Assembly: GCA_030272155.1 (NCBI GenBank)
Contig: CP126191.1
Span: forward strand, 10,659,001 to 10,723,000
Source of the DNA: Tetradesmus obliquus
Taxonomy: Eukaryota; Chlorophyta; Chlorophyceae; Sphaeropleales; Scenedesmaceae
Direction: 5' to 3'
Length of the DNA: 64,000 nucleotides
In this document: one piece after another, positions 2,799-57,795 of the stretch
How the letters are laid out: every line of letters begins with the position of its first letter
How positions within the stretch are numbered: the first letter of the stretch is position 1
Notes under the pieces: generated by a model
Database searches by the model: none
The model's input: the letters and a program-made list of their open reading frames with translations, nothing else
Told to the model about the DNA's origin: nothing
Translations under genes and position numbers: made by a program

Positions 2799-5665
2799 AC
2801 GTGGACACCAGCCTGGGGTCATTCGAGCTGCTGGAGGATGACTCATCATCACTGGCAGGCCCAACGCAGCAGCTTGCTGCGGTGCGGGCCCGTGCCGCGC
2901 CGCCGCCGCTGAGCAGCGAGGAGCTGGCCAGCTTTCTCGATGGTGACGGGCGGCTGGTGGACGAGGCGGGGTTCAGGGAAAGAGTGTTCCAAGCAGGTGA
3001 TTGGATGAGACGGGCAATGGATGATGCGGCAATGGATTCTGCGGGGTGTGAGAAGGATGTGCTGTGTATGCAAGCGTGTGGCTGGCTGCTTGCAGCGTAA
3101 GGCTGGAGGCATGTGCACTGGCAGCATGTGGTGTGCTGCTGGGGCCGCTTCTGGCTGTGTCCACATTTGCTGTCACGCTGCTGCCAGTGCTGATGGCTGC
3201 TACCGCTGCGCTGATCATGTGTCTTTTCTACTTACTATTGTTTCACTTTTCAATCGACCTCGCAGGCATCGAGCCGGCTGCGCGCAGGGGGGCATCAAGC
3301 CATATGTAACCACCGTTCCATTGTTACAGCCTTTTCATCAGGCTTCCTGCTTGTGGCAGCAAGGCATCTGCAGGTACTGCTGCTGTCTGATTCACATCTT
3401 TTGTAACAATCTTGCTGCTGCTGCTGCTTCTGGGCTGCTTTACATCCTTTGCCTTTTTGCAGGCATTGAGCCCACCGCGCGCCGTGAGGCCTGGAAGTGG
3501 CTGCTGGGCGTGTACCCTGCCGGCAGCAGCAGCGCACAGCGGCAGCAGCAGCGCCTGCGGCAGCAGCAGCAGTACGCGCTGCTGCAGGGCCAGTGGGCTG
3601 CGGTGGGCCCTGAGCAGGCGCGGCGCTGGGGCAAGTGGCGGGAGCGGCGCAGCAGGATTGATAAGGACGTGGCGCGCACCGACAGGTAAGGGGCGGTGGA
3701 GGGGCTGGTGCTGTTTTGCGGGGACTTGCAGGAAGCACACTCTGCAACAGCACAATACGAACCTCGTGCTCACTTGCAAGTGAAACAAGGACGTGGCACG
3801 CACCGACAGGTGAGGGGGCTGATGGCGTTCTTGCTATGGCTTGATGGGTATTGTGATGATCATGTGGTGGGGGACAGCTGCGGCTGTGCTGCTTGGCCAA
3901 CACAGCTCTGCACGGTGCCAGCAGGTGGTGCACTAGATGGCAGCTGGGGCCTAACGTATGCAGCGGCAATGCGTCACACACGTGCAGCGGTTGCAATTAA
4001 CGGGCCTCACACCACGTCATTGCTTCCTGTGTTGCTTGGTCCTCCTGCAGGCTGCACCCCTTCTACCGGGGCCGTGACGCGCCGCAGCACCTGGCCGCGC
4101 TGCGTGACGTGCTGCGCTGCTACTGCCTGTTCAATTGGGACCTGGGCTACTGCCAGGGCATGAGCGACCTGGCCAGCCCACTGCTGGTGGCCATGGAGGG
4201 AGACGAGGTGCGGCGAGGGGGTTGCGCAGCGGCAGCAGCAGCAGCAGCAATGATTCTGCAGCATCATTGTCTGCTTGGTGGTTCTTTGTTGTGTTGTGTT
4301 GGCGGGTGAGCGACTGGCCATGGAGGGCGAGAAGTGACGCGAGGGGGCAGCAGCAGCAGCAGGAAGAGCAGCAACGTTTAACTCAGACCTGCATGTGGTG
4401 TTTGGGGTCTTTGAGATCTCCAGTTTCAACGGCAGCAGTAAGGAGAAGCAGCATCAAGTAAGCAAAGGATCAACTTTCAACCTCTCCTGGCTGCAGGTGG
4501 ATGCCTTCTGGTGCTTTGTGGGGCTGATGGAGCGCATGGCAGGCAACTTTGCGCAGGACCAGGCAGGCATGCACACGCAGCTGGCAGCGCTGCGGCAGCT
4601 GGTGCAGGTGCGGCTGGCTGGGTGACAACATGCTGCAGGAATGTGGGCTGTGAGGCACTTTATGCGGCACGCATGCGGCGTGTGCCTTCCAAAGGTGTCT
4701 GCACGCTACAGCAACTAGTGTGGTGCATGCTGATGGTACAGCCCTGCACATGCTGCAGTGATCACGTCAACTTTTCAGTATGTTGTCGAGCACTGCCGTC
4801 AGCTGTTCAGCATGTGGCGTACAGTGCTGCTTCAGCTTCACAGCTGTAACTGTATCCTGTGTGCGCCTGCTACATGGACTGCTGCTGCTGCTGCTGCCGC
4901 CTCCAACTCACCTGCAGGTGCTGGACCCGCAGCTGCACGCGCTGTTTGAGGCGCGCGAGTGCCTCAACTACTTCTTCGCCTTCCGCTGGCTGCTCATCCA
5001 CTTCAAGCGCGAGTTCCCCTTCGACCAGGTGCGACGCTATCAAGGCCTACTGCGCTGTTTTCCAGGGGTTGTGTTGCCGCTTGGCCGCTTGCAAGGTTTG
5101 CGTGCCACAGGGCCCACAGTTCAAGATAGTGAGGTTCGGGGCTTGGGCCCAGCCACTGCAGGCGCGGTGGAGCTGCATCGTGCATTAAGTAGATTCATCA
5201 CAGCAGCTGCATGCGTGCAGCCACGTGACGGCTTCCTGCAGCACGAAGGCGCCGCTTGCTGCTGCGCTTACCTGCACAGACATGCAGGCATTGTGATCCC
5301 AGGTCTCAGCTCCTCCACCGTACCTTAGCCGCTGAAGTTTCACCTGCCATCCGCCACTTTGCTCTCCCCAACCTACTCCACTGCCACACTGCTGCCGCAC
5401 CCCTCCCCTGCAGGTGCTGTGCCTGTGGGAGGCGTGCTGGGCCTGCCCCCTGACCCCCCACCTGCACCTGTACCTGGCAGCAGCAGTGCTCATCCAGCAC
5501 CGCCGGCTGCTGCTGACCGACCCGGCGCTGGACTTTGACGGCCTGCTGCGCTTCTGTGTGGGCCTGGCGGGGCGGCTGGAGCTGGGCGGCTGCCTGCGGC
5601 TGGCGGAGGCGCTGGCGTTGATTGCGGGGCAGGCGGGGCAGGAGTTGCTGGCCGGGCTGCCATAA
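192..5665 (+). CDS. RabGAP with TBC domain, plant TBC1D15/17 type
   Basis: GTPase-activating protein for Rab GTPases, expected at cytosolic membrane faces. Exons: 192-662, 923-2996, 3463-3685, 4051-4207, 4497-4607, 4918-5028, 5414-5665; they sum to 1,132 codons plus stop with all phases agreeing. An N-terminal membrane/Rab-binding region is spread around VVYVREGVAVWPSH (about residue 158) and PIPLSDVKALVKHTPP (about 380-450), as in plant TBC1D15 homologues. The TBC domain starts at GIEPTARREAWKWLLG (about 849). Both catalytic fingers are present: the arginine in IDKDVARTDR and the glutamine in GYCQGMSD, so the GAP should be active. Exon 2 is far longer than in plants because of Gln, Ala and Ser runs encoded by CAG-type triplets in different frames. 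The ATG at 192 is only the first in-frame one; an upstream exon is possible. Confidence 0.9.
3262..3293 (+). repeat. Intronic copy of the start of RabGAP exon 3
   Basis: The bases reproduce the acceptor and first codons of the real exon at 3460-3491. They read GIEPAARRG in place of GIEPTARREA, at roughly 80% identity. The copy lies inside the intron, about 200 bases upstream of the functional exon, and keeps an intact CGCAG acceptor. Confidence 0.7.
3785..3815 (+). repeat. Intronic copy of the end of RabGAP exon 3
   Basis: This repeats 3661-3691, the end of exon 3 with its donor, with three differences in 31 bases. The copy still reads KDVARTDR and ends in a consensus GTGAGG donor. It sits 100 bases downstream of the functional donor (GTAAGG). 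Confidence 0.85.
4309..4360 (+). repeat. Partial intronic copy of the end of RabGAP exon 4
   Basis: This resembles 4162-4250: GAGCGAC-TGGCC, GCCATGGAGGG, then CGCGAGGGGG followed by a CAG tract. Compared with the exon it carries internal deletions, and the donor has become AAGTGACG. Confidence 0.6.
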
Positions 5666-6918: not shown

Positions 6919-9663
6919 ATGAACAAGCTATTGCTGCTTGGGCTCGTGCTGGCCGCCCTGGGGTCAGCGTATGCCCGCATCGAGTACGCTCATGTGTTCT
7001 ACGACGACAGGCCGCTCATAGAGATCACACAGCCCTTTGGCTTCGGCAGTAGGGGTCACATAGACATAGTTCTGCGGGACATCAGCATCTGGAGGCGCCA
7101 TGACAGCGAGGACGACTACAAGCTGGGCAACTTTGGCTTCTTCCTGGCCAACATCAACTCAGCCAGCTCCAGCGTCACGCAGGAGATGCTCTCGCAGGCG
7201 TGCCTGCTAGAAGAGCGGGACCTGTTGAAGCTCTTCACGTTTGCTGACCCCAAGGTGGAGGCAGTCATCGATGGCAAGGCCCCGAACGTGACCTTCCATG
7301 TGGAGGTCAAAGATGGGGGCCTCTTCTCGGTCTTCTTTGCCAACTGCGAGCAGCGCACGCCCGTGTCATTCGCCATGAAGGTGTCTGCCTACAACCTGGT
7401 GGGGCCGCAGGGCCGCAAGGACTACCTGTCCATCGGCGAGGGAGAGCTGGACGTGATGTACTGGGTGCGCAGCAGCAGCAGCAGCAGCTACAGCAGCAGC
7501 GGCATCAGCGGGTTCAGAGTGCTGAAATGGAACAGTGATGGCAGGGGTTGGTGAAGGGGGGTGTCACCAGTGTCAAAGGCAGCAGTAGGGCTTGTCAGTA
7601 GCGTTCACAGCAGCAGCAGCAGCACGCTGCTAGCACCAGTTCGCAGCATCGTATGTTACACACGACAAGCCGTCCGCCGGATTGCAGTTTGCAATCACCA
7701 GTGTAACTATTGCAAATAAGCAGCATGAAGCTTCAGCCGGCAGCAATGGCAGCAGCAGATCAACTCAGCAGCTGAATATCTTTAGCACACCAGCTTGGCA
7801 GTGACAGCAGCGTTATCCCACTCTGGGTAACAGCTGCAGAACAGATTGCATTGCAGTTGCGTAGCGGGCGCGAAAGCACCACCAACACCAGCAGTGCTTG
7901 TGCGTGCAGCATGCTGCTCCGGCCCAGCACCAGTCAGGGATGTCCAGCAGGTGCTTGCTGGACGGTACCACAGGGCAGCAGCAGTGACAGCCTGCAGCTG
8001 CTGTTCATTCAGCAGCCCTCATACACACATCTGTTCCGCGCCCGCTCACTCTTACCATCTTGTGCTGTTATCTCCGCTGGCTGTTACCATCCTGCCTCCA
8101 TCCCTGCCGCAGGTTATGTTTGGCCTGTTTGCCACCATCACCGCAGCTTGGGCCACAACTCTAGTGCGCGCGCGCCGCACTGCCGGCAGCGTGCACTCCA
8201 TTCACTGGCTTATGCTGGGCCTAGTGGCCTTCAAGACGCTGACGCTGCTGGCGCAGACCTGCATGTACCTGGTTATTCAACGCGCCGGCAGCCCGCATGG
8301 CTGGAACTGGGTGTACTACATCGCCACCTTCTTCAGGGGCATGCTGTTCTTCAGCGTCATCGTGCTGATTGGCACGGGATGGTGAGGAGCTGCTGCTGCT
8401 GCTGTCGAAGCAGTGCTGCTGGCAGTTATCATTCGGCACAGCAGGCAATCGCCAGGGCTCAGTAGGCGTGCCGGCCTTTGAAAGTGATCTGCAAGCTCGG
8501 GGTGTATATTCTGCGCCGCAGCAACTGCTTTGGCGGCTTATGAGCATACAGATGCATCTGCATGCAGCTTGAGACGCAGTGGCAGCATGGATGCAGACGT
8601 TCGCTGCCTGCTGGCGTGCTGAGGCTCTGCTGTGCTTTGTTGCTTGTGCTGCTGCCGCATGTCATTGGTGTTTGTGCTGCTGCTGCAGGAGCTACATGAA
8701 GCCCTTCATTGATGACAACACGCGCAAGGTGCTCATGGTGGTCATCCCGCTGCAGGTGCGGTCCTAGGTTTCAGGCGCTGTAGCGTTTGTGTGCGGAGAT
8801 TAGGGAAGCAGCTGCTGCTGTGGCGGTGCAAAGGTGCAGCTGTGGTTACTGCGGTGGCCGCGTAGGTCGGCATCAGCAGCAGCAGCAGCGCTGGTGAGGA
8901 GTCGCCCAGCTTGCTGTCACCCACTTACTGTCACCTTGACACACGCGGCTGCTGTCACCGGCTGATGTAAACCCTGACACCCCGGCTGCTGTCACGCTCC
9001 ATGCCGCTGCAGGTGCTTGCGCTCATACGCCTTCAGTCTGACACACGTGGGTGCTGTCACGCCGCGCCGCCACCGTCAACACACACACTTGCCGTCACCC
9101 GCCGCCGCAGGTGTTTGCGGACATTGCCATCGTCATCACTGGCGAGGAGTCACCCGTTTACTGTCACCTGACGCACCCGGCTGCTGTCCCCTGCTTGCTT
9201 GTTGTCACCCCCGCCCCACCCCACCCTCCCACAGGTGTTTGCGGAGATCGCCATCGTCATCACTGGCGAGGAGTCGCCCTCCATCCGCGACTGGGTCACC
9301 TGGGTGAACATCCTGCACTTTGTGGACATCCTGTGCTGCTGCGCGATCCTGTTCCCCATCGTGTGGAGCATCAAGCACCTGCGCGACGCCAGCGAGACAG
9401 ACGGCAAAGCGGCACGGGCGCTTGAGAAGCTGCAGCTCTTCCGGCAGTTCTACATCCTGGTCGTGGTGTTCATCTACTTCACGCGCATTGTGGTGTTTCT
9501 GCTGCGGGAGAACCTGGCGAATAGCTTGTATGCGTGGGTTGCGGATGCAGCGTATGAGCTGGCGTACCTGGCGTTCTATGTGTGGGTGGGCGTGCGCTTT
9601 GCGCCGAATGCCAATAACCCGTACACCAAGCTGCGGCAGGAAGAGATTGAGATGAGGGTGTAG
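6919..9663 (+). CDS. GOST-family seven-TM protein, GPR107/108-like
   Basis: Membrane protein of the lung-7-TM/GOST family, which in plants and animals acts in Golgi-endosome traffic. Four exons (6919-7464, 8113-8381, 8689-8755, 9235-9663) give 436 codons plus stop in consistent phase. The start is chosen because MNKLLLLGLVLAALGSAYA is a clear signal peptide. Luminal GOLD-like part: RPLIEITQPFGFGSRGHIDI, FFANCEQRTPVSFAMK, then KDYLSIG. The membrane bundle begins at VMFGLFATITAAW and continues through VHSIHWLM, GSPHGWNWVYYIATFFRG, VLIGTGWSYMKPF, KVLMVVIPLQ, DWVTWVNILHFVDILCCCA and LFRQFYILVVVFIYFTR. These blocks match plant CAND6/7-type homologues in order. Intron 1 begins with a CAG tract right after its GTGCGC donor. 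Confidence 0.92.
9111..9156 (+). repeat. Intronic copy of the start of GOST exon 4
   Basis: GTGTTTGCGGACATTGCCAT and the following bases repeat the real exon start at 9235-9280. The copy reads VFADIAIVITGEESP against VFAEIAIVITGEESP and keeps a CCGCAG acceptor. After ESP the copy diverges at once into intron-like sequence. A fainter echo of the exon 3 end (CCGCTGCAGGTGC) lies near 9003. Confidence 0.9.
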
Positions 9664-10989: not shown

Positions 10990-12715
10990 CTGCTGGGAGC
11001 CCTACCAGCAGCAACAGCAGTGACAGCAACAGCAGCAGCAGGCTGGCTGCACTGCGCAGGCTGCAGCGCAGCGTGCCTGCTGCCTCTGACAGTGGCAGGG
11101 GGGCATGGCAGTTCAAGGTGGCCCTGGAGGTGAGGCCAGCAGCAGCAGCAGCGGGCATGGTGTGGCCTGTTGTGTCCAGACTGCACCTGTACCGTGCGCT
11201 AGGGAGCCCTCTGAAGCCCTGCGCTTGCTGCATAACAGATTCGTTTACAAGCTGCAACTGCATCACATCCCTGGCAGCTGACGGTGCAACAGATGATGAT
11301 ACATCTCTTCCATGTGAAATGCAGCGGATATGCAGACGGCAACATGCGTCACACTAACCCTGTATGTTATGGTGTGCTACCACCCCGATTACAACCCTGC
11401 TGTACACATGCACCTGCACTTGCTCATCATGCAGATCCTGTACCACTACTGCCAGGGCCCTGCCAGCCCTCTGCACGCCTACATCCAAACCCTACCTGGG
11501 GTTCAGCAGGGCATTCCTAAACCCCAGATAGCCATGCTATACCCTAAACCCCAGCTGCAGGAGCTGCAGTACAACCCTCTGATAGGCGATGCAGCCAGCC
11601 AGGCCTACTGGTGGAGGCAGTACAGCAAAGAGGTGCTGGCAGCGCTTCCTGGCAGTGCTGATGATCCATTTGGCGGGCAGCTGGTCACACAGGAGCAGCT
11701 GGGTGAGGCGAAATTGACTATCAGCCATGTTTTGCCATCAGCATGCTGTGGCAGCTGGCCCTAGTTTTAACGATGAGGGATCCTTGTAGTCACCACCACG
11801 CTGCACACAGGAGCAGCTGGGTGAGCTCGTAATGGGCTATGCCCCGCTTTTTGGCCAGCAGCATGCTGCGGCAGCTGGCCTTGTAGTCACCAACACGCCG
11901 CAACTGATGCTTGCACGTCAGCTGCGCTGCAACGCTGCACTTGTCGTGCCTTGTGCCGATCACGTAGGTGCTGCTGTGCAGCAGGCTGGGCGCTGCCGCC
12001 GGCCATGTCTTGTGTTGCCCATACCAGACGGACCGGCAGCTGCTTGCAGTACTTGTTAGCTGCTTTTGTGTGCTGCTGCTTTGCAGGCTGGGCGCTGCCC
12101 CTGGCCATGTCTTGTGTTAGACGTACCAGACGGACTGGTAGCTGCTTGCAGTACTTCAACGCTGGATTTGTGTGCTGCTGCGTTGCAGGCTGGGCGCTGT
12201 CTCTGGCCATGTCTCGTGCATTTGGCTTCAAGCGCCTCGGGGGCTGGGCGCTGGTGCCGCTGGTGGACATGGCCAACCACGCCCTGGCCAGCAACGCAGA
12301 GATACGCTTCGGGGAGGACGGTGTCGTGCGCATGATGGCCAACAAGCAGGTCGGTTGACTGGGTTGTGACACTTTGATACAAGCAGGTTCTGTTGAGGTC
12401 TGATGTTGCATCAATGGAATGGTGGGATCAGGATGCATTTTGACAGGGCTGTGCCGTGACCCTGGGTGCTGCTCATAGCTCATGGCTGCACAGCCAGCCA
12501 TGTTGAGGAGCATCACATGTTGCTCTCAACATCTGTATCATGCAGGCGTCACGGCTTGCAATGGATACAGTGGTTGTTTGGTGCTGGTCATCTGTGAGAA
12601 CCATACTTGGCAGGAAGAATTCCACCAGGTGTTGCAGGCAACACACCACCGCGTCTGCCACTGCTGCTGCTGTTGCACTCCACGTCACAGGTTCGGCAGG
12701 CTATCCACAATACAA

Positions 12716-12770
<55 letters not shown>

Positions 12771-14517
12771 GCCGCTGCTGCTGCGCTGCCAGGTGTCTGC
12801 TGGCGCCCCCATCCTGCTCAAGTACGGCTCCCACGACAACGCCAACCTGCTGCTGAGCTACGGCTTTGTGCTGGCCGACAACCCCGCTGACACCTTCGCC
12901 TGGCCGCTGGACATGGAGCTGCTGCTGGTGCGCAAAAGCGGCTTGCTGTGTACACACTCGTTATGCTAATTCTGTTGTTCTCATCTTGCCGCGTGTATGG
13001 CGTGTGTTACACAGGACTGAGGACTCGTAGATGTTAGCTGAGCTAGTTTGGTTGTTTACAACGCCCTCATGGCAGCTGCTGCATGCTGCATGTGTTGCTG
13101 CAGTGAGCAAACAGCTCTGGAAGACGCTATGCATGCAGCAAGCAGCACACACTTATATGAATTGTCGCCTGCGCTGCCTGCTCACCCCTGCACTCCAATT
13201 CTGCAGGCTGCCATCTACCAGTTTGTGGGTGGGCAGCTGCCACCCAGCGGCAAGGCAGTGGACGGCCTCAAGACCTGGCAGCGCACCACGCTGCAGCACC
13301 TGGGACTACTGCAGGCAAATTCCAGCTCCTCCCCCAGCAGCAGCAGCAGCAGCAGTGAAGCTGCAGGCAGCAGCACTGCTAATGGGCAACAGCACCAGCC
13401 AGAGGCAGCAGCAGCAGCAGCTCCGTTGGTGGTGCGCATCGGTGGGGAGCCTCCTGTATCGCCTGAGCTGCTGGCTGCTGTGAGGGTGGTGCTGGCCACA
13501 GTGAGTGAAAGCATTGCGGCGGCACAGCGCAGTGTAGCAGTGTAGGATCGCAGTCTACAGCAGTGTTTGCTCTAGATGGTGCTTGCACCTGTTGATTGTT
13601 TCTGCCGGTGCATACTCCATACTGGATCCTGAGCTGCTTGCTGCTGTGAGGGTGGTGCTGGTGATGGACCAGGGCAGCTGAACAGGCAGAGCACAGCAGC
13701 AGTGGCAGCACTGCAGCATATGCTGCAGATCTGCTATCTAGATAGCACCTATAGTCACTAGTTCCGGCGTAAGCATGTGTGTGGCAGTATTGCTCCTGGC
13801 ATACGCATCAAGCCGCTGCAGCAACAGTGCTTGCATTCGGCATTGGTTAGCGGAATGGACGTGGCAGCTTTGTTGTCAAAGGCACGCTAGTAGGGAAATA
13901 CATATTTCCCTACTAACATAATATATGGGCATGTTGTGGCGGCTATCTTGCCAATGTGGCTGTTTCCTGTTGCTGTTACCCAACCTGCAGGAGCGTTCTT
14001 CAGTAAAAGGCAAGTCCCTGGAGCAGTTGGGTGACTGGCAGCAGCCACTGTCTGCGGCTCACGAGGTGCGCCACTGCATACTGGGGCTTGCCGTGCCAAG
14101 GATGCTTACTGGGCACATGGTTTGTCAGCAATCAGGATTACAGGAGACAGCCGTCAAAGTGGTGCGAGTACTTGTCGATTGATGCTCAACACGACCATGT
14201 CTCGTCAGCAGCTTCTACAATGCAACAATAACTGCCCTACTTGCATGCGCTGCTGCTGCTGCTGCCGATGCTGCTGCCAGGCGCTGGTGATGAAGGCGCT
14301 GGTGGGCCTGCTGACTGTGCTGTACAAGAGCTTCCCCACAAGCATACAGGCCGACAGGGCGCAGCTGCAGCAGCCGGCAGCAGCAGCAGCGGGCGGTGAT
14401 GCGCTGGCTGCTGAGCGGCATGCCACAGCTGTCCAGTTTAGGCTGGGGCTAAAGCTGCTGCTGGAGCGGTCTACTAAGGACCTGATTGTGCGGCTTAAGG
14501 AGCTGCTGCAGCAGTAG
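10388..14517 (+). CDS. SET-domain protein lysine methyltransferase with Rubisco-LSMT-type C-terminus
   Basis: S-adenosylmethionine-dependent protein methyltransferase of the SETD3/SETD6/LSMT group. Exons: 10388-10693, 10896-11129, 11435-11702, 12189-12349, 12793-12927, 13207-13500, 13991-14065, 14281-14517; total 569 codons plus stop, phases consistent. SET elements in order: EPLLEWMQQQGC and VGLFYEQQKGG; DLAPGDVLITVPL; the split insert ending QLGWALSLAMSRAFG; then GGWALVPLVDMANHA, which matches the conserved N-H motif; and KYGSHDNANLLLSYGFV, with the catalytic-tyrosine region. The last three exons give the helical substrate-binding part (KALVGLLTVLYKSF to a Leu-rich end). Ser and Gln runs interrupt the first two exons. 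The substrate cannot be read from sequence; the first exon is not a clear transit peptide, so plastid targeting is uncertain. Confidence 0.85.
11806..12188 (+). repeat. Copies of both exon boundaries inside SET intron 3
   Basis: At about 11809 the end of exon 3 with its donor (ACACAGGAGCAGCTGGGTGAG) is repeated from 11687, followed by about 90 bases of shared intron (CAGCATGCTG-GGCAGCTGGCC, TAGTCACCA-CACG). At about 11980 and 12084 the start of exon 4 (GCAGGCTGGGCGCTG...GGCCATGTCT) appears twice before the functional copy at 12185. The spacing is about 100 bases, and the shared tail includes ACCAGACGGAC-GG-AGCTGCTTGCAGTACTT. Confidence 0.88.
12719..12792 (+). repeat. CTG tract running into a 3' splice site
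   Basis: A run of about 17 CTG/GCTG triplets fills the end of the intron, continues as CCGCCGCTGCTGCTGCGCTG and ends in the CCAG acceptor for SET exon 5 at 12793. It takes the place normally held by a pyrimidine tract. Confidence 0.85.
13625..13665 (+). repeat. Intronic copy of the end of SET exon 6
   Basis: CCTGAGCTGCT-GCTGCTGTG followed by AGGGTGGTGCTGG repeats 13462-13494, the last codons (PELLAAVRVVLA) of exon 6. It lies 125 bases past the functional donor. The donor itself has become GGTGATG. Confidence 0.8.
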
Positions 14518-26290: not shown

Positions 26291-26345
26291 TACTGGCTGA
26301 CAGTATGGCTGGTGCAGAACACCATGTTCGCCTCTTACATAGCTG

Positions 26346-43300: not shown

Positions 43301-43640
43301 CGCTGTTGTCGGGTCAGCGCCCTGCTCGATTGCGCCGACAGGGCCAATCTCATGTTTGTGCAGCCGCAGGCTCATGTTTGTGCAGCAGCAGGCGACTGTG
43401 GCGGCAGCAGCACCCTGTGGCTACCTTTGACCGTGCAGCTACAAAGGGGCTTCTTGAACAGTGTGTTCACCAGCGAGCCACGCTTGCAGCCCTCAAAGAC
43501 ACAGTGAGGTGTCAGCAGCAGAAGCAGCAGGTGCTGTTGTCAGGGTTGTGCCCTGCACGATTGCGCCGACAGGGCCAGTCTCAAGGGTGTGCAGCAGCTG
43601 GCGACAGTGACGGCCGCAGCAGCCTGCAGCCACCTATCAC
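43190..43640 (+). repeat. Repeated terminal segment of the HIG1-like gene
   Basis: The last coding bases (CTGCAGCCCTCAAAGACACA then GTGA, 43220-43244) recur at 43486-43506 in the same frame context (FLNSVFTSEPRLQPSKTQ). The following 3' segment (GTTGTC-GGGT, CGATTGCGCCGACAGGGCCA) recurs at about 43310 and 43560. The two units are about 260 bases apart and include 3' UTR. Confidence 0.85.
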
Positions 43641-46997: not shown

Positions 46998-48024
46998 ATG
47001 TCTGGCAGTGGCAGCAGCAGCACTGCTGCTGCCAAGGATGCTAAGGAAGAGTGTGCATGGTGCAAGTTCATGAAAGGAGGCCCATGCAGAGCTGTTTTTG
47101 AGGTGAGCTTTTGTTCTTGGCCTGCAGGCATGCCTTGTACGACAGCCAGATCCCACACTTGTCATGCCAGCAACGTTTCTTTTGGAGCCAGGACAGAGTC
47201 TCGGCCATGCTTTGTCACATGCGGAGCTCCTTGCCTGCAGTTGTTCTGTAAGTTACTTTCAACAAGATCGTTCCATCAACTTGTCTGGACGTTTGGGGTG
47301 GATTGCCTGCTTGCAGACATGGCAGTCCTGTGTGGACAGCGTAGCTGATGGGCCTGAGGGCGCAGCAGACGAAGAGACACGCAAGCAGGCTGTGGAGAAG
47401 TGCTCTGCTGTGGTGAGTTCCTTAAAGCGGCTGTTGATATGAAAAACAAGCCTGAAGTTGAAGTAATGAAGTAATATAGTAGCAGGTCAAAGTGGTGGCA
47501 GCGTACTGCTGTGCCGCGGGAACAGCGCTATGGTGATGCGTGGCACCTTAATGGTCTTGCAGCTGCTGCCTTGTAGCAAGGCAGCCTTTGTTGTGGACTG
47601 GCGAGCAACAGTGTAGCCGAGCATGTATCAAGAACTAATCCCTGGCAGGTTGAGCAGGCGCCGTAGTTGCAGCCGTTAGTTTGGCAGCTGTGTGCTGGGC
47701 TTAGATGCTGCGCGGACATCTGGTGGATGACTCGACTGCTCTTGCATCATTGCATAGCAACTTTGCTACAGGCTTATTAATGACAACTTTTTTGCCTGCT
47801 TCCCTGCCTGCTTGCAGACTGCTCCCCTGTTTGAGTGCCTGGTGCAGCACCCAGAGTACTATGGGCCGCAGCTAGACAGCATGAAGCAGCGTGATGCACA
47901 ACCTGGTGCTAAGGAGCAGCAGCAGCAGCAAGCGCCAGCCAAAACTACCACTGGCAGCAGTGTAGGACAGCAAGCACCAGCAGTTGCTGGGGCTGCCGGC
48001 AAGTTGAGTGCCGCGGCTGTATAG
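46998..48024 (+). CDS. GCK-domain protein
   Basis: Three exons (46998-47102, 47317-47412, 47818-48024), 135 codons plus stop. The GCK domain is a Cys-rich module, resembling twin-CxnC proteins, seen mainly in plants and algae. Its hallmarks are here: EECAWCKFMKGGPCRAVFET, then WQSCVDSV, an acidic helix with VEKCSAV, and LFECLVQHPEYYGPQL, with six cysteines in the expected positions. The N-terminus is a short Ser/Gly stretch without a clear targeting signal. The C-terminus (QQQQQAPAKTTTGSSVG) is low complexity. The start is chosen at 46998 because the codons before it are not conserved-looking; an upstream in-frame ATG exists at 46854. Confidence 0.82.
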
Positions 48025-49090
48025 TGAAGCAGTAGCTGGTGGGTGGGGCTCACAGCTGCTTGAGGGTGTTGCTGTTGAGAGTCTATTTCTAGCAAGTTTA
48101 GATTGGCTGATGTTATCTCCCATCAGATGTGGATAGCTTCAGCGTTGTGGGAAGACAGTAGTGTCCTGTAGTGTGACTGCTGCAGCAAGCAGCTGCGGTC
48201 AGCTGCTGGCAACAGCCGAGTGGAAGCGTGTTGGCGGCCCTTCAGCTGCTGTAGCATGCAACGCCGCCGTTTTGCAAAGCTTGCTTTTTATAGTTCATTA
48301 CCACATGGTGGTCTGCATTCTGTGTTGTTGTGCTTGAACCTGCCGGCACAAATGTTGGCTGAACCTGGTCTCCTGCAGGGTTGTGTGCATGCAGTGTAGC
48401 AACGAGAGCATGTTGAGTGCATGCATGAGCTTTGACTGTGGCAGTGACATTATCAATTATATGTCACGCTGCAACTTGTGTGTTGTGTCCTTGTTGCGAG
48501 TGCCTAGTGCTGCATGCATGTGCGGCATGTCCAAGGTACTGTTGCATAGGACATGTTGGATCGACTGCTTCTACGTGGTATGGCATATCCCACGTATGGT
48601 CAGCATGTGGCATGTATGCAAGTGGGTTTGCTGGCAGAGCAACTTCATCTTAGGGCCCATGGCATGGACTTTGGAAAGGCACTGTCAATGTAGTTGGCTG
48701 CCATGAACCAGCTTGTGGGTGTGAAGTTGGGCGCATCAAACCGGTCTGTTGTGTTGGACGGACGGCGTGGTATTCAGGTGCGTTGCAGGTGTCGTTGCAG
48801 GTTGGTTCTGAAGCGTTCCTGACAGGTGCTGACATGCCCCAACATGTCGAGAGTTCAAGACTGTGTGATTGCATGACACGCTGTAAGTTATGGCTGGCTT
48901 GAATGTCCCACATGACTGTTTTTTTCCTCGTTAGTATCCATTTGTGTCCTGTCAGCGTGTCTGAAGGCACTTTCGTCGGACACGTCGCCCGTCAGCAGAA
49001 CGCTGCTCTGTGTGGATACCATCAGCACAGCGTTAATTGCCAGTAACTTTTGAATTACGACCTTCACATTCAACCGTAGCGATCTACAGC
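48025..49090. other. Intergenic, no gene recognised
   Basis: About 1 kb of TG-rich sequence between the GCK stop and the carbonic anhydrase start. No domain-bearing open frame was seen. Confidence 0.4.
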
Positions 49091-51399
49091 ATGCACTGCT
49101 TGCACAAGCAGCAGCTGCCACAGCAGCAGGTCACCAGAGCAGCAACCTTCCGTGTTGCGTGCCCAGTGCCGAGGAATGTGGTGCTGCGTGCTACAGCTTC
49201 TCAGGAAGGTCCACTTATACATCAGACCAGGGCTGTAGACAACCTGGCTTCACAGGATGCTGCAGCAGTCAACAGGCGCCGGATGATCATGCTTGGATGT
49301 GCCTGCTGCAGCAGCCTGATGCTGGCTGGGCAGCACACACCTGCAAAAGCCAGCGATGGGTCAGTATTCACCTACGGTGAGTGCAACTGTTTTCTGATGT
49401 GTCATTACACAACAGCAGTCCTGCAGGAAAGGGTGCTGTGAGCCCTGTCCTCATCAGTGACACACTTCACACAGCAGAGCTGCGCATCACCTGCGCTTGC
49501 TGCGCCCTGCTCCTGTGCTTGACCCAGCACACAATGCCGAGTGTTGTGGCGAGCCATTCTTAGTCTTACCATTAAAAGTGTCACTCATTTGCTGCCGACC
49601 CTTGCCCTCCCTGCCCTCCCTGCTGTGCTGCTGCTGCTTGCAGGAGAGGAGGCGGGCCCGCTGGCTTGGGGCGGCACCTGCTCTGCTGGGCAGCAGCAGT
49701 CGCCCATCAACCTGCCCAGCAGCAGCGCGGCAGCCAGGGCCTGCGGCGGCCAACCAGCGCCTGTGTTCCAGTGAGTGCGCTGCAGCAGCCGGGGCAAAGC
49801 AGCTGCGTGTTTTGTTTCACAACCGCGGACGCAGCAGTGACGCTCGCACATGCTGCGCCGTCAGCAGCAGACAGGCCTCCCGGGGTGCTGAATTGCTGGC
49901 CTCTAATGTGTCACAAGCTGCAGCAGTGTGACGCAGTATGGTGTAGTCTTTGCCAGGCTGTGTGGCAGAGGCGATGCCGTGCGCCTCATGTAGAGTAAGC
50001 ACGCTACAGCAACCACAGCGCAGCTGCAGTTGCCCACTGCAAAGCAACACCGCTGTCCGGCACTTGTTGGCGCAGGTACCGCCGTGACAACCAAGTACGG
50101 GTGAAGAACACTGGCACCACCATACAGGTGCAGCGGTTAGCTTACCCCTGTCAGCAGTGCTCGTAAGTCAGCAGCACGCAGTGGCGCATACTGCACGGAT
50201 GCGTTTACAGCCAAGCATCGCTTCTCCACCAAAGGAAGAGGACAGCATGCTGCCGGCACGTGTGTTTGCATCTCAAGCTGCCAGACCATGCTGAAGGATC
50301 ACTGCCTGCCTTGCCTGCAGGTCAACTTTTGAATCGGGTAACTTGGTGCCATGGGGTTATCTCAGCGTGTCACAGCACAGGAGGGGACAGCATGCAGCCA
50401 AAGTGCAACTTGAGTTGTCCTGTGTGTGGCACACTGCCTGCAGGTTAACTTTGAGCCGGGCAACAGCGTGGCCTGGGGCGATGCGCAGCTGGAGCTGCTG
50501 CAGTTCCACTTCCACACGCCCAGCGAGCATGCCTGGGACGGCCAGCGCAGCGCCATGGAGGCGCACCTGGTGCACAGGAACACAGCAACAGGTGCGGCTG
50601 TGCTGGGGCTGCACACTTGGTGGTGTGGATTTGGTGGTTGTTGGTGGTGTGGCTGAGCAGCAGTGGCATCAGCAGAAGCAGCAGCAGCGGTAGGGGTCAG
50701 CTGCAGGGGGCGAGCAGTGGTGCAGCATGGTGGTGCATGTGCTGCCGACAGGCAGCAGCAGGCGCACAATCACGCTCAGCAAGGCGAGGCCCATTGCTGA
50801 CCTGTGTGCGCTGCATCCTGTATTCTGCTATGTAACCGCTGCCGTTGCTGCTGCAGGGGGCTTTGCCGTGGTGGCAGTGATGCTGCAGCCACCCAGCAGC
50901 AGCGCTGCCCAGCCCAACCCCTGCCTCGCAGCAGCACTCGCCCACGTGCCTGACACACCACAGGCAGAGGCAGCATGCCCTAGCAGTGTCAACCCGCAGC
51001 AGCTGCTGCCTGCTGGTGCTGCTGCTGCGCGGTTTGTGCACTATGCTGGCTCTCTGACCACGCCGCCCTGCTCGGAGCAGGTGGACTGGCTGGTGTGGGA
51101 GCAGCCGCTGCCTGTCACTGACAAGCAGGTGCACGGTGACGGGCAGGAGACCACTCGTAGGATCTGTGTACTGGTCAAATGCCACTGCATTGACGCACCT
51201 CAGCAAATCAGCGGTTTGTGCAGCAATGTGTAACACAGTAGCCTTGTGCTTGCGCTGATGATGTGTGCTGCTGCTTGCCGCGCAGGTGCTGGACTTCATG
51301 CGCTTTGCTGGTGCCGGCAGGAGCTACGGGCACAATGCACGGCCCCTGCAGCCCCTGAACGGCCGTGCACTGGACTATAGCTGCATAGCAGGAGCCTAA
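49091..51399 (+). CDS. Alpha-carbonic anhydrase, probable thylakoid-lumen type
   Basis: Zinc enzyme interconverting CO2 and bicarbonate. Exons: 49091-49376, 49644-49770, 50076-50127, 50444-50591, 50857-51128, 51286-51399; 332 codons plus stop. The first 90 residues look like a bipartite targeting signal: a Ser/Thr/Arg-rich transit part, then RRR at 62-64, a hydrophobic Cys-rich core (MIMLGCACCSSLMLAG) and PAKAS as cleavage site, as in twin-arginine lumen proteins such as Chlamydomonas CAH3. Catalytic core: AGQQQSPINLP; zinc ligands in LQFHFHTPSEHAWDG (two His) and EAHLVHRN (third His); and GSLTTPPCSEQVDWLVW with the conserved Thr. The insert QPPSSSAAQPNPC and Ala runs lengthen the middle. All ligands are intact, so activity is expected. 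Lumen location is inferred, and suggests a role in the carbon-concentrating mechanism. Confidence 0.92.
50318..50352 (+). repeat. Intronic copy of the carbonic anhydrase exon 4 start
   Basis: CTGCAGGTCAACTTTTGAAT and CGGGTAACTTGGTGCC resemble CTGCAGGTTAACTTTGAGCC and GGGCAACAGCGTGGCC at 50438-50474. The copy has an intact acceptor but a one-base insertion that shifts the frame and makes a stop (TTTTGA). It lies about 120 bases upstream of the functional exon. Confidence 0.82.
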
Positions 51400-52189
51400 G
51401 ACTTTTGGGGTCAAGATATCAAAGCAACAGCCTGCTGGTAATCCTGCCCTATGTTTGGGTAGGTTTTTGTTGGATTAGCAGCTGGTGCTCTGGCGAGGCG
51501 TTGTCAGACCTACTCAATCAAGTCTGTTGGTGTAAAACATACAGACTTGATCTGTTGTGGCTGGTGATTCTGTGGCACGGAGGCGACCCGTCCAGGCTTC
51601 TTTCCACTTTCAACAGTCCAACTTGGACTGTTGGCTACTTGGCAAGTAACGCCCTGAAGCACGTTTGGGGCGCAGGAGGCAATCGCCGGCTGAAACGTAT
51701 GGCAAGTACAATAAAGTTACCTTCTAGCCCTTGCAGCACCGCTGTAAGTGCGCATATTGCAAGGTAACGGCCAAATGGAGGCATTCCTCCACCGCTGAAT
51801 AGCCCACTTGGCGCCAGTGGCCGATTCTTGTGCGTTGGAGTGGCAGGATCGACGCTATCGAGTGGCGTTAATGGATGGCGCTATACAGATAAGTGCACTT
51901 GTTTGTTGTGAGTTCAAGTCCTGCCGGCACAAGATGGCATGCCATCGCAGTTCTACGGAACTTCACACATGAACATTCGGCATGTTTAGCACACTGTAAC
52001 CACAGCAACTACCAGCTCAACAAGCATATGTTGAAACGTTTTCAAGATTTGCATTTCGAGATCGCACAACAACGTCTGCTGACAGGGCAAATTGCCCCGG
52101 GCTTGACGGATTTGCACAGCGGTGATACGTGGACTGCCTGATTGTTCGTGACTTTGTGAATACCAAATTGACAAAGCTTGTGAGCTGTG
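51400..52189. other. Intergenic, no gene recognised
   Basis: Carbonic anhydrase 3' flank and upstream region of the beta-helix gene. At 51826-51933 the ends can pair (TCTTGTG with CACAAGA) around a GTTCAAGTCC box, faintly tRNA-like, but no acceptable cloverleaf was found. Confidence 0.35.
51531..51535 (+). terminator. Candidate polyadenylation signal TGTAA
   Basis: TGTAA is the usual polyadenylation signal of chlorophycean green algae. This copy lies about 130 bases after the carbonic anhydrase stop codon. Confidence 0.3.
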
Positions 52190-53960
52190 ATGCGGCGAGT
52201 GGCTTCCGGCCGCTGGGCTTTTGTGCTGGGCTACAGTGCTCTGCTGCTGTGTGGTCTCTCGCTGGTCGCTGCCACATCAGGTAACGGGCTGTGCTTGTCA
52301 AAAGCTATGACTTCACATGATAAAGCAATGAACAGCTTCAGAGCAGCTGAGACCTGCTACGGGACCTGCTTTGTCAGCTGTAAGCAGTAACCCCAGCAAG
52401 GAAGGCCACATGCAGGGCACACAAGGAATGGATACACAATGGCAAACTCAATGTAATACATGTTCCACATAGTGGGAGCAGCTAAAGCCGTCAATCATGC
52501 CACCAGTTGCACACCTTGTGCTGCAACAACCTGCTTCCGCCGACGACGCCGCTGCTTCCGCTGCGGCTGCTGCTGCTGCTGCTTTTGTAACAGCTTTGCC
52601 GGCAGGGCCGCCTGCTGCACGGCTGCTGGCAACGGCATGGAACCCACCCACGCCCCCTCAGCCCTCGCTGCCTTGCAGGAAGACAGCAGTGGACACAACA
52701 GGGTGGGCAGCTGGGGATGAGCAGGGCAGCTGCACACACGTTTGGCGACATAACAGCGGCAGGGGCATGCACCAGCAGCGTTAGCAGCCAGTCGCGTGAG
52801 CAGAGGATGCAAGAAGCGGCCGCAGGAGATACTGTACAATCTGACAAGCCCGTTATTGGCTGATGTTGAGCTGTCACAACCATGCAACATTGCAATGGCA
52901 TGCACAGCTGCCGGCTGCTTGCCGCATCCAATTTACCACGGCAACTGTTGATGGGCACGCCACACAAGAGCGACTTGTACCACAAGTTCAGCAGCACTCA
53001 GCTTGCAACCTGCTGCTGCTCCTGCTGCTGCTTGTGTGCTATGCAGCTTCATCACCTTGTGGGTCGATGCAGCAGCCAAAGGCGAGGAGCTGGGCACACG
53101 GTCAGCGCCCTACCACAGCATGGGCCCAGCAGTGGCGGCCATCCCCAAGGCAGTGAAGCTGACCCGGGGCATCGTCATCAACGTCATGCCAGTAAGCCGC
53201 TGTTGGAAATCATTTGAACTGAGTGCAAGGGATTAAAGCAGCTGAAGAGTTTCTGACAAAGACAACAGCCAGCAGCAGCAGCAGCACCAGCAGCAGCAGC
53301 AGCAGCAGCACCAGCAGCAGCATATGCTGGTGATGTGGCTGCAGCTGCTGCACTGCCTGGCTGTGTGCAGTGCAGGAGCAGTGAAGCCTGTGCAGCTGAA
53401 GCTGCTGAATTGCGTCCAGCATAGCAGCCCTGTTCCTGTCGACACTGCATCCATGACCTGCCTGCATCCCTTTTGTGCCCGACCGCCTTGCAGGGCATTG
53501 TGTACCTCTCACGCGACAAGGCGCTGTGGTTTGAGAGCCTGTGGGGCACCCCATCAGCGCCCATTGTGCTGCAGCGCGCGCCAGGCACAGCAGGCGAGGC
53601 AGACCTGCAGGGCATAGAGGTGTTCGACTGCACCTGGCTGTATTTCGTTGGGGTTACGTTCAGACAGGTGCGGCTGCAAACACTGCATCTGGCTGCACTG
53701 CATTGAAGATTGACACTGCAACATGGCCCTCAACGCCGCGACTGCTAGCGTGAAGTTGGTGCTGCATGCTATGCTAAAGCATGGTGTTTGTCAACTGTTG
53801 CTGGGCTGACATAATGCTGCTAGCATCCTCGACCCCACATCAGGCACACACAGGGTGCGTTATTTGCCACAGAGATGCTCAGCAGCGGCTGCAGATGCCC
53901 GCAGGGCCATTGGCGTTTTCCGCCTAACCTACCAAACATACCTGCTGCTGCTGGTGCTGG

Positions 53961-54005
<45 letters not shown>

Positions 54006-55377
54006 TGCTGCTGCAGCCCAATGACAGCTATGGTGGCGGCGATGTGGTGCATGTCGCGCACAGCGCCTACATTCACCTGCTGGGCATCGCTGCCATTGGG
54101 CAGTCAGTGGACGACATGAAGCCGCAGGAGACTATCAAGGTGGGCGGCAGCTGGGTTATCGGTTTTGTGATTTCATCGTTGGCCTGCTGCACCAACATCC
54201 GTGCAAGGGTGTTAAGACAGCAGCGGCGTGCTGTCCAAGCAGCACACAATGCACCGTGTTCTAGTGTCCTGCACTTACATTCACATGCGGATGCGCGCTC
54301 GCTGCTTCTTGGTTGGCGTGCTGCAGGTGAACCATTTGCAGTGCATCTACATCAAAGACAGTGAAGCCTCCTACACTTAACACCATTTAAATGCTCACTC
54401 GCTGCTGTGTGATGGGCATGCTGCAGGTGAACCAGGTGCAGGGCATGTACATCGAGGACAGCGACGTCTCCCATGCGGGTGACAACAGCGTGGACTTTGT
54501 GGCGGTGCAGTACGGCCACGTGTGCAGGACCAAGATACACGAGGCCAACTGGTGCATATACGCCAAAGGTGCGCAATGCAATGCAGCCGAAGCTTACATA
54601 GCAAGTTTGACTAGGTATGCCCTGATTGACTAGGTATGCCCTGATTGACTAGGTATGCCCTGATTGACTAGGTATGCCCTGATTGACTAGGTATGCCCTG
54701 ATTGACTAGGTATGCCCTGATTGACTAGGTATGCCCTGATTGACTAGGTATGCCCTGATTGACTAGGTATGCCCTGATTGACTAGGTATGCCCTGATTGA
54801 CTAGGTATGCCCTGATTGTGTGACTAGGTATGCCCTGATTGTGTGACTAGGTATGCCCTGATTGTGTGACTAGGTATGCCCTGATTGTGTCGCATCCCAC
54901 TGCCTGCAGGATCCTGCATACGTTCGTGCTTGCTTTTATGCATGACCTTGCCTGCGCTGGTACGCATTACTGTGTACCAATCTGCACAGGGTGAGCAGCC
55001 AGCAGCGCATGCTGACATGCCAACTGTAATCTCACTGTCAACAATGCCTGGGTGATGTGTGCAGGCGGCTCTGCATATTTGCTGATTGACAGCAACTCTG
55101 TGTACAATTGCAACGAGGCAGGGCTCAGGATTGGCCAGGGCACAGGGTTTGAGGTGAGCAGCTTGGCTGCAGTGCAGCTTGCTGTAGTGGCGACAGGCTT
55201 ACTACCCCGTACACAGCACTTCCAAACAATGAATACGCCTCGCAGCAACATGCAGCTTGCAGTGAAGGTCGCCGCCCGGCCATGTGCTTCTCATGCGCTT
55301 GACTGTGATCTAACACAAAACACGGCCCGCATGCGGCTGTTGGGTACTTGCGGCTAATACTTGCGCCAAGCCGCTGC

Positions 55378-55465
<88 letters not shown>

Positions 55466-57795
55466 GCAGTACATGGTGGCGCCCTGGCTGCAGTACGAGG
55501 CGTACGGCATCCGCGTGACCAACAACCTGGTCTACAACACCTGGGGCGCGGGGCTGGGCGTAGCTGGCGGCTACAACATACTCGTGGCATACAACACTGT
55601 GTTCAGGTGCGCTGGTTGATGGAGCAGTGTGTCATGCAGCTGCAGTCGCACATCATACTACTCTACTGCTGTACTTGCTCAGTTTGTGTGGGTGAGCCCA
55701 GCTGGGCTGTACATGGCCATGCATGTGAACGAAAGCCTCCTACCTGGCAGGCACCAGCGGCACGTAGGAGATTTCATCCCCTGGGAGGGGGCTGCAAAGC
55801 ATGCAGGGAACTGGCGTCTCTGTGATGGAGCTGTCAGCGTTCAACGCAAAACTGCCTGTTGCTGTTGCTGCTGCTGCTGCCATGTGTGGTGCTGGTGTCA
55901 GGTGTGGCGAGCGCTCCCACATGGTGGAGTTTGACTACGGCTCACGCTCCTGTGATGGTGACACCGACCTGGACGGCATGTGCAACGCCAACGCAAACGC
56001 AGGTCAGGTGGCGGACCCACTGCTTCTGCTGAATATGTCACTAGCCAGTATAGCCTTTTTGTTTGCTGAGGCCCACCCCAATGCAGAGGCACCGCCAGAG
56101 ACACAGCGTCTGCTGTTGGCTCATCAACGACTGTGCCTGATCCATGCAACTTAAACCAACTGACATCCAGCAGCTGTCAGCAAGAACACCAAACCAACCA
56201 CCTGCAGTGCCACTGGTACTGCTGACAGTTTGAATCATCCAGCATGGCGGCTGCATTTATCAACACGCCTTCATGCTGCGCTGCAGGTGGATGGGGCCCG
56301 CGCAGGCCTGGCATGCCGGCCATGCCCATTCCCAACAAGGCAGTGCACTTCATCAACAACCTGCTGGTCAACCCTGACGGTTACTCTGCCTCTGCATTCT
56401 TCAATGTGAGTGCTTGCGTCTTAGGCACAGAGCTGTGCACATGCATTGCAGTTCACCAAGCATCTGCACTAAATCAAAGCACATATGCTTGTGACATACA
56501 TGTGCAGCAAAAGAGAGGTGGCTACTCTGCCTCCGCTGTCCTCAATGTGTGTGTCCACACCTCAGCAGAGATTCATTTGGTACAGCTCAACACGCATAGG
56601 AGGAGGTGGTGCACTGAGCAGCGCTGCAACCTCATGACAGCTGATGCGTGGCAGTCTGTTCATCGCGCTGGGTCAACTGCATTGATCCCAAGCAACAGTT
56701 CATTTGATAGCCTTCACACAACATAATGTTACCCAAAAGAACAGCCTGTATTGCCTTGGCTATTGCTTCCACAGAACTCACGGCACCAGCACCACCCACA
56801 AGCAACCGTCACCAGTCATGACTTCCACAATAGTCTGTACGATGGGCTGTCAGCGCGCCCAACCAACGCCAACCGGGAGAGGCCTAAATGTGACATGATG
56901 ATGACTAAACCATCATCGCCGCACCTGCTGCTGCCCTGCAGGCGCCGCTGCCGCACCCTGTGGGTGAGACAGACACGCCAGGCCCGCGCCCGCCCACCAA
57001 CCCCTACGTGTCCAACGGCCTGCGCATCCGCGGCAACGTCTTCATAAACGAAGTGCCAGATGACAGCCTGGGGCTGCCGGCTTGCTTTGCCATCAACGTC
57101 GCATGCAACCCTGCACAGGTGGGCTCTTGTGACACCTGTTGTAACACGCCTGAAACGTGAAGTTTGGGCAGCTTACTGCTTGGCTGCTTGGTTACTTTGC
57201 TACCTGGGTGCAACGTTTGTATGCAAGTGCATGACACGATGGCTTGCAGGGGGCCCACAACCTTGACAAGCTGAGCTGCAGTTCAAAGTCGCTCCAGCAG
57301 CAGCCTGCATGCCTCTTCAGTGCGCAGCACTTTCTGGAACTGCGCAGCGCATCGTCCTATACACTATTCCCAGCAATCATCTGCTGACAATCACTGCACG
57401 ATGCTTTTGCAAGTCCTTGATGTGATTGTTGTGTTGATGCTGTCAGTCACCCGCAGTCACACCCCCCTCCCTCTGGCTCCTTGTGTCGCTCTGCTGAGCC
57501 CTGCCGTGTCGCTCCACACTCTGCATGCTCCCAGGTGCGGCGCGACAACACCTTCAACGACCCAGCCCTGTCACTCGACCTCTCAGGCGTCACTGCCGCT
57601 GATGCAGCAGTGTCCCCAGGCAGCAAGGCGGCACTGCGGCGGGCCTGGCGGCGTGTGTCTGTGCCGCCACCCTTCCCTACGTGGTCCACGCCCGGTTGTC
57701 CGACGCCCAACGGTACGCTGACGAATGTGGTGCGTTTTGACAGAGTTGGGCTGGTCAGGAGTGCCAGCAACGACCTGCCAGGGGCCCAGCTGTGA
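52190..57795 (+). CDS. Secreted parallel beta-helix (pectin-lyase-fold) protein
   Basis: Signal peptide exon 52190-52280 (FVLGYSALLLCGLSLVAATS). Then exons about 53047-53191, 53494-53667, 54017-54139, 54427-54568, 55065-55153, 55470-55606, 55902-56002, 56287-56405, 56942-57118 and 57535-57795; phases agree from the third onward. The join of the first two is unresolved, and a small exon may be missing. The entry segment TLWVDAAAKGEELGTRSAPY followed by INVMPGIVYLS is typical of right-handed beta-helix proteins. Short rungs follow: IEVFDCTWLYFVGVTFRQ, VNQVQGMYIEDSDVSHAGDN, AYLLIDSNSVYNCNEAGLRI, IRVTNNLVYNTWGAGLGVAG, VHFINNLLVNPDGYSASAFF, LRIRGNVFINE. Such proteins bind or cleave polysaccharides; I cannot identify catalytic Asp/Arg/Lys residues, so carbohydrate binding, lyase and hydrolase roles all remain open. 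Confidence 0.78.
53941..54016 (+). repeat. CTG tract ending at a 3' splice site
   Basis: Over twenty CTG triplets, with GTG and TTG interruptions, run directly into CTGCAG, the acceptor of the beta-helix exon at 54017. Confidence 0.9.
54327..54372 (+). repeat. Intronic copy of the start of a beta-helix exon
   Basis: CTGCAGGTGAACCATTTGCA and GTGCATCTACATCAAAGACA match the functional exon start at 54421-54462 (CTGCAGGTGAACCAGGTGCA, GGGCATGTACATCGAGGACA). The reading is VNHLQCIYIKDSEAS against VNQVQGMYIEDSDVS. The preceding CTCGCTGCT-TGTG-TGGGCATG bases are shared too. The period is 100 bases. Confidence 0.92.
54609..54892 (+). repeat. Minisatellite of 14 copies in an intron
   Basis: The 19-base unit GACTAGGTATGCCCTGATT is repeated head to tail about 11 times almost without change. 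Three more copies follow with a TGTGT insertion that lengthens the unit to 24 bases. It lies 40 bases after the donor of the beta-helix exon ending at 54568. Confidence 0.97.
55374..55469 (+). repeat. CTG/TTG tract ending at a 3' splice site
   Basis: About 31 CTG or TTG triplets run up to CTGCCGCAG, the acceptor of the beta-helix exon at 55470. This is the longest triplet tract in the window. Confidence 0.9.
56514..56551 (+). repeat. Intronic copy of a beta-helix exon end
   Basis: GAGGTGGCTACTCTGCCTCC and GCTGTCCTCAATGTGTGTG match the end of the exon at 56376-56410 (GACGGTTACTCTGCCTCTGC, ATTCTTCAATGTGAGTG). The reading is GYSASAVLN against GYSASAFFN. The donor has changed from GTGAGT to GTGTGT. 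It lies 135 bases downstream of the original. Confidence 0.88.

Follow-up and report, generated by a model that had tools for sequence, protein, structure and literature searches.

Introns of Tetradesmus obliquus carry copies of the edges of their own neighbouring exons, an observation that was confirmed here as real, genome-wide and broader than first claimed, the earlier note having described it for nine genes of one window. The window is the whole 64-kb stretch presented above (C1:10,659,001-10,723,000; GC 56%), taken from a genome of 104.66 Mb in 17 contigs. Together with five 50-kb blocks of the same genome (C2, C5, C9, C14 and C11) it made up a sample of 314 kb, in which a strict search covering every spacing below 1 kb, short spacings too, found 385 direct but only 1 inverted local repeat pair. 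As many as 119 of the 385 pairs lay over an exon edge with 0-12 nt of intron, whereas 15.3 ± 5.2 were expected from shifting the annotation 300 times (maximum 37 in the 300 shifts).

Gene structures were predicted by a self-trained exon finder without RNA support. Two first models were dropped for an excess of tiny exons and a drifting acceptor; the final model held 455 predicted introns at its last pass. Across the six blocks it gave AAG|GTGAG or GTGCG as donors and CTGCAG|G as acceptors, and the median predicted intron between exons of at least 60 nt was about 313 nt. Thresholds vary between the analyses below (identity 76-88, exon part 12-28 nt).

Local direct copies at exon edges

With hard masking, the six blocks yielded 285 direct and 2 inverted local pairs, and four of the blocks 228 and 6, respectively. 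The repeats are thus above chance, for the same hard-masked search returned 0 local pairs in the six blocks after local shuffling. Hard masking of CAG repeats concealed similarity between spacers and was therefore replaced by soft masking in later searches; a lenient soft-masked search gave 351 direct and 53 inverted pairs, the latter probably CAG/CTG low complexity. In the strict and hard-masked searches, the scarcity of local inverted duplications (1 vs 385 and 2 vs 285) argues against hairpin or snap-back copying. Similarity beyond the local range came to 32 hits at E ≤ 1e-3 in the hard-masked 314 kb, compared with the 285 local pairs of a similar search. The spacing of neighbouring exon-containing copies peaked at 100-150 nt (82 of 171).

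All nine genes named in the earlier note contain a repeat of the claimed geometry; six cases are strong (RabGAP, GOST, SET, NRT2, SDR and HIG1-like), that of the EF-hand (calcineurin B-like) gene is moderate and the remaining two are weak when taken alone. Within the window, self-BLAST found 42 direct pairs less than 3 kb apart and no inverted pair. A Pfam scan of eight of the nine window gene models matched RabGAP-TBC, GOST_TM, Rubisco-LSMT substrate-binding, NAD_binding_10, MFS_1, PMSR, EF-hands, PUB, carbonic anhydrase, beta-helix and GCK, and no domain was matched in the HIG1-like gene. At 47057-63470, the exon finder fused the GCK-domain gene, carbonic anhydrase and the beta-helix gene into one predicted model, so that the gene borders there are unreliable.

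On the plus strand, the last 23 nt of the predicted RabGAP/TBC exon 3463-3685 plus 8 nt of intron (3663-3693) recur in the intron at 3787-3817, 124 nt downstream, with 93.5% identity (strict self-BLAST). The 3′ end of this gene is repeated at 5566-6007 in units that extend beyond the stop codon (73-92% identity, spacing 141 and 255). In the GOST gene, the start of exon 9235-9657 with 3 nt of acceptor (source 9232-9279) has a 94% copy 124 nt upstream, at 9108-9155 (plus strand, strict search); its three differences from the exon all fall at third codon positions. The SET/Rubisco-LSMT-like gene shows 102-nt units at 11968-12218 (plus strand), each made of an intron 3′ end and a copy of the first 30 nt of exon 12189-12349, for which the last unit has the actual exon start. 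A further plus-strand copy at 13628-13661 is 97% identical by self-BLAST to 13462-13495, 166 nt upstream and near the end of predicted exon 13207-13500.

Three genes bear their copies on the minus strand. In NRT2/MFS, the exon end at 17790 with its donor is copied at 17674-17740 (87%, spacing 111, strict search), and in an array of 178-nt units at 18725-19208 exon 19251-19498 has 73-110 nt from its end repeated together with a consensus donor; the repeat region as a whole spans 18725-19360. In SDR (NAD_binding_10), the exon end ...VIKALLSKKTDNT and its donor, at 32034-32077, have a 93% copy at 31917-31960 (spacing 117), and the 73-nt spacer between edge and copy, 31961-32033, matched only itself in a genome search that skipped very common words. 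The EF-hand gene has a 70% copy of its edge region 40635-40723 at 40510-40590 (spacing 125, E 9e-5, self-BLAST).

The remaining copies are on the plus strand. The end of the last predicted HIG1-like exon (43186-43244) recurs beyond the gene end at 43449-43507 (86%, self-BLAST). By self-BLAST, the carbonic anhydrase exon start region 50435-50489 has a weak copy at 50312-50366 (75%, spacing 123, E 0.03). In the beta-helix part, 54391-54471 (45 nt of exon start and 36 nt of intron) is copied at 54291-54371 (79%, spacing 100, strict search), and the exon end 56379-56412 has a weak copy at 56520-56553 (82%, spacing 141, E 0.24, self-BLAST). Copies thus occur on both the donor and the acceptor side with splice site and codons, as had been stated, and the same holds outside the window; a gradation from eroded to identical copies was likewise borne out in the six blocks. 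Two other repeats of the window are a minisatellite in a predicted intron (54607-54887), in which a 19-nt unit occurs 14 times, and a segment of up to 0.6 kb that recurs at 23442-29372 in several diverged direct copies, mostly 1.9-2.8 kb apart and 63-82% identical, which probably represent an old tandem gene or segment duplication.

As an example of edge-copy density the window is poor. Junctions with a copy numbered 7/126 in the window, as against 42/107 in C9, 36/112 in C14 and 29/91 in C11; the count was 15/97 in C5 and 3/111 in C2. In all six blocks, 132 of 644 junctions had a copy, 78 of them with a clearly intronic partner (20 in C9, 17 in C14 and 21 in C11). The C2 block (L005-L009), nearly free of edge copies, is also GC-richer (61.7%) and more coding (31%).

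Some genes of the other blocks carry whole arrays. The CWC22 gene (8xi2_V, E 3e-166) has one exon start five times in about 600 nt, the functional one counted, with a different acceptor-like tract before each, unrelated spacers and one frameshift. In the CCT8 gene (7trg_B, E 1e-141), one exon start stands three times in tandem, again counting the functional one. When both were aligned with solved homologues, the duplicated peptides appeared as insertions that the exon finder had wrongly called exons. The whole CWC22 array, one spacer of the window and one of C9 matched only themselves genome-wide in the search that skipped very common words. Elsewhere, C9 24756-28750 (L017) is a young internally repeated gene, whose exons for VKPDKPSEKKVADAASIAFGRLGLRHLLAARPFSSVQTS recur in 324-nt units with identities of up to 99%.

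A spacing of 100-150 nt is similar to the length of short reads, which could point to an artefact of assembly, with diverged haplotypes or read-length fragments set side by side. Such an artefact is extremely improbable, however, given that one intron holds four copies next to its exon, with a frameshift and with spacers that are unrelated, and given that copy divergence is graded from 100 to about 80% identity.

Anchoring of copies at splice junctions

More than half of the strict pairs (210/385) touch a predicted junction, and the alignment mostly ends 2-9 nt inside the intron and spans 30-80 nt of exon. The excess of edge pairs with 0-12 nt of intron persisted at identities of at least 90 (76/207, 8.5 expected) and at least 95 (34/86, 3.7 expected), whereas pairs with at least 13 nt of intron were in small excess (78 vs 58.3 ± 10.5).

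We compared 40-nt tiles across the sequence. A local copy was found for 135/566 tiles at splice edges, 36/623 in exon interiors and 436/4821 in introns; for interior tiles 120 nt or more away from any edge, the count was 3/193, and at the few gene-end edges other than splice edges it was 4/27. The claim would have failed had edges been copied no more often than random exon positions, but a non-exonic partner was present for 83/566 splice-edge tiles against 18/623 interior tiles at least 40 nt from an edge (p = 9e-14), and for 0/193 at least 120 nt away. At identities of at least 95, tiles with a copy numbered 43/532 at edges, 6/529 in exon interiors and 41/2920 in deep introns; at 97% they numbered 29/532 at edges against 32/2920 in deep introns, and edges again exceeded exon interiors.

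These high-identity counts bear on a reading by chance placement, that local duplications fall at random everywhere and are visible at edges because exons hold still while introns drift. Although fresh head-to-tail duplications look random in position and edges diverge less than spacers, the edge excess lasts at 95% and 97% identity, where the spacer should not yet be hidden by drift, and we regard chance placement as very improbable. Neutral decay alone is disfavoured on the same ground.

Two classes of duplication were then distinguished, with one row counted per place or junction. Head-to-tail duplications, defined by an alignment of at least 0.75 of the spacing, formed 44 clusters at identities of at least 80 (median spacing 127 nt) and are alike over their whole length in the manner of minisatellites; 121 spaced clusters do not fit this description. 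Fresh head-to-tail clusters (identity at least 90) touched a junction in 5/16 cases against 4.7 expected, a small sample, but at identities of at least 80 there was an excess (23/44 vs 13.8 ± 3.0). Spaced edge-only copies of at least 95 were junction-anchored in 27/37 clusters, compared with 6.1 ± 2.3. Because the fresh head-to-tail class shows no visible anchoring and the edge-only class is anchored, duplication is not visibly tied to junctions, while the preserved part is. Thus, the proposal that the duplication process itself is anchored on splice junctions found no support beyond the excess at lower identity, and anchoring seems to belong to the preserved part rather than to the duplication event.

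Within aligned units holding both an edge and a spacer, again one row per place or junction, the edge was less diverged in 72/81 (mean 11.7% vs 30.3%; Wilcoxon 3e-13), a contrast that is partly built in, with too small a p-value, because edges were defined by exon similarity and several rows can come from one array. Among the exceptions is the recent intronic unit pair 18725/18903, with identities of 92.5% in the edge and 95.2% in the spacer. The 60 nt past the aligned end were compared for 45 edge-only pairs (34 junctions); weak residual similarity was retained on the intron side (10.8 vs 8.4, p = 3e-5), and no residual similarity was found in the exon-side flanks. The weak intron-side similarity suggests formerly homologous spacers that have since drifted, rather than bare insertions. 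CAG/CTG micro-homology was not enriched at the inner copy ends (46/78, compared with 1153/1800 at random exon positions).

The same flanks weigh on the idea that the edge and its splice site are copied by themselves, without a spacer, through an RNA- or splicing-linked template or junction-anchored repair. This idea agrees with junction-touching alignments that end mostly 2-9 nt into the intron even at 95-100% identity, and with an anchored class that is spaced instead of head-to-tail and has often unalignable spacers. We nevertheless consider it unlikely, since intron flanks retain residual similarity, the spacer is alignable too in many units, and acceptor-like sequence lies just outside the copy, which would be unexpected from random insertion.

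Splice sites and codon pattern of the copies

Judged by their sequence, the splice sites of the copies appear to be of functional quality. Acceptor copies have AG in 24/25 cases and a pyrimidine content of 0.66, close to that of their sources (0.67) and of predicted acceptors (0.60; random intronic CAG, 0.47), and acceptor-like tracts are kept even beyond the alignable part. Donor copies have GT in 25/28, and 19/28 fit GTGNG. At their inner ends, by comparison with random intron windows, splice sites were not enriched in 24 acceptor-side copies or in 27 donor-side ones, nor did the reading frame prove specially open in the 24 copies examined for it. Without enrichment at the inner end the copies do not resemble exons, and a reading of them as mini-exons is unsupported.

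The mismatches between exon and copy are distributed as in coding sequence. Over 101 pairs, they affected 6.9% of first, 5.0% of second and 16.4% of third codon positions, a ratio of 2.76. A separate analysis took the best partner for 66 junctions, and its most similar pairs (identity at least 93), in which the bias was strongest, gave 4/282, 7/281 and 27/281. Copies compared with one another, including some up to 60% exon-labelled, gave 68/1052, 55/1039 and 159/1028. A run with different gap costs gave counts nearly identical to those of the best-partner analysis; codon positions, too, were counted one row per place or junction. Frameshifting gaps per substitution were 0.08, against 0.185 for all indels outside exons (raw values, alignment length not factored in), and the frame was broken in 21/101 copies. 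Among exon-copy pairs, neither distance nor flank alignability had a clear effect on the codon-position pattern.

We estimate that the ratio for a neutral copy, whether or not simple conversion acts on it, would be at most about 1.75-2.3. The third-position bias exceeds this expectation and would be explained by copies that come from other alleles or by part-time constraint. Neither simple conversion alone nor selection through repeat contraction fits the codon pattern fully, according to rate arguments.

If edge and copy arose by unequal exchange between divergent alleles, they would differ like alleles from birth, each with its own intron end. In its favour, the third-position bias is greatest in the most similar copies, and both members carry splice sites of apparently functional quality that are often different. 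However, the bias is not stronger in pairs with unalignable intron flanks (ratio 2.43, n = 36) than in those with alignable ones (2.82, n = 51), and four copies beside the exon in one intron would require several alleles. We therefore take allelic exchange to be rather improbable as an origin.

Selection could also keep the copies because they are used, whether as splice sites that compete, as alternative edges or as decoys in regulation. The AG and GT of nearly all copies, their acceptor-like pyrimidine content, the coding-like substitutions and the fewer frameshifts would agree with such use; inner ends with no splice-site enrichment, the lack of a specially open frame and the 21/101 broken frames speak against it, and splicing at a copy would put spacer into the message. 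Retention by selection is accordingly a distinctly unlikely account.

Proposed mechanism, known systems and intron length

Exon-driven homogenisation is favoured over anchored copying, allelic exchange and selection. Under this account, ordinary tandem duplication of about 100-150 nt was followed by a period in which the exon-edge part alone was kept alike, a proposal that we hold tentatively, at somewhat under even confidence. Short units, typically 100-150 nt, would be duplicated in tandem at many sites. Duplications internal to exons would be purged, while those in introns or across an exon-intron edge would be tolerated, because one complete exon edge remains. The spacer would then drift beyond recognition, and the exon-edge part of the units would stay similar because the constrained functional exon keeps re-supplying sequence, perhaps by short-tract gene conversion or template switching and possibly from other alleles. 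The end product would be longer introns, holding arrays in which exon-edge copies have good splice sites and are set apart by unrelated spacers.

This sequence of duplication and conversion is supported by pairs that are mostly local and direct, by the 100-150 nt spacing by the near absence of copies deep in exons (3/193), by edges less diverged than spacers, by anchoring that is visible in the edge-only class but not in fresh head-to-tail duplications, and by the duplicated peptides that stand as insertions in the CCT8 and CWC22 alignments; the residual intron-flank similarity fits a spacer that was once homologous. The data themselves show the local direct duplication and its size, the enrichment at edges, their lower divergence and the quality of the splice sites, whereas purging, conversion and allelic donors are steps that we infer. 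Against this account stand the codon ratio of 2.76, which is highest in the most similar pairs and recurs between copies, the fewer frameshifts, the acceptor-like tracts beyond the alignment, the excess of edges over deep introns at 97% and the head-to-tail excess at identities of at least 80.

Several known systems resemble the one described here. Tandem genomic duplication reportedly led to intron gain in the potato RdRp gene. Intron gain of this kind is also described for near-intron pairs of Drosophila (PMC2891723). The likeness lies in short local tandem duplications that hold exon sequence and splice or proto-splice sites; the difference is that in those cases an exon segment is duplicated and turns into a new intron, whereas here existing introns carry copies of their own edges. 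An offset equal to intron length, the signature of intron creation, was seen in six pair-intron matches, two of them from one C11 pair in one repeated gene, and introns with similar ends (score at least 18) numbered 11/239, compared with 1.0% of mispaired introns. A few introns may thus have been created by tandem duplication, which with six offset matches is too rare for a general account. The clearest case here is a repeat of about 247 nt at C11 18807-20573 (L026-L027), in which both ends of a predicted intron fall on one and the same CTGCAG|GTGGAG site of the unit.

In tandem exon duplication, including mutually exclusive exons, exon sequence is likewise repeated within a gene. The copies reported here differ in that mostly 30-80 nt of one edge are copied and the inner end lacks splice-site enrichment. 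Introners, as outlined in PMC9860276, are dispersed families of similar introns, and mass intron change is reported chiefly from fast-evolving lineages, green algae among them. Introns are changed en masse here as well, but unlike that of introners the similarity is for the overwhelming part local, with 32 non-local hits in the 314 kb, and the tested spacers are single in the genome. An introner or transposon reading is therefore unsupported by these hits and by the two spacers and one array that are single in the search skipping common words. As to the target-site (3-9 bp) or terminal repeats of introners, the strict search with its 1 inverted and 385 direct pairs misses repeats so short. No account of such edge copies was found in the literature searched, which comprised titles and abstract openings and left most subscription journals outside.

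The earlier note had also held that the copies lengthen introns. Copy-bearing introns are indeed longer, with a median of 486 nt (n = 37) against 289 nt (n = 194; p = 1e-9), but long introns also offer more room for a copy, which may contribute to the difference. Relatives of Chlamydomonas have long introns with no short-length peak and medians of 198-343 nt, according to the accessible text of PMC8226300, and the median of about 313 nt found here falls within this range. The same portion of that source does not settle what determines intron length, and an edge-copy process is not mentioned in it.

What lengthens introns, and why such algae have long ones, is thus an open question as far as that text goes (PMC8226300), to which edge copying brings a countable local process that touches about one third of the predicted junctions in three of the six blocks (C9, C14 and C11). 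As the exon finder mistook some copies for exons, annotated proteins of such genomes may hold false duplicated peptides. It is doubtful that the exon edge is itself the copied unit, a splice- or transcription-linked process writing the last or first 30-80 coding bases and the splice site into the adjoining intron about 125 nt away, with copies refreshed from coding alleles; introns would then be archives of exon-edge variants that grow stepwise by that size of about 125 nt. If exon-driven conversion is true, these genes would offer a natural experiment on short-tract conversion within genes. The edge copies may help explain intron growth in this genome.
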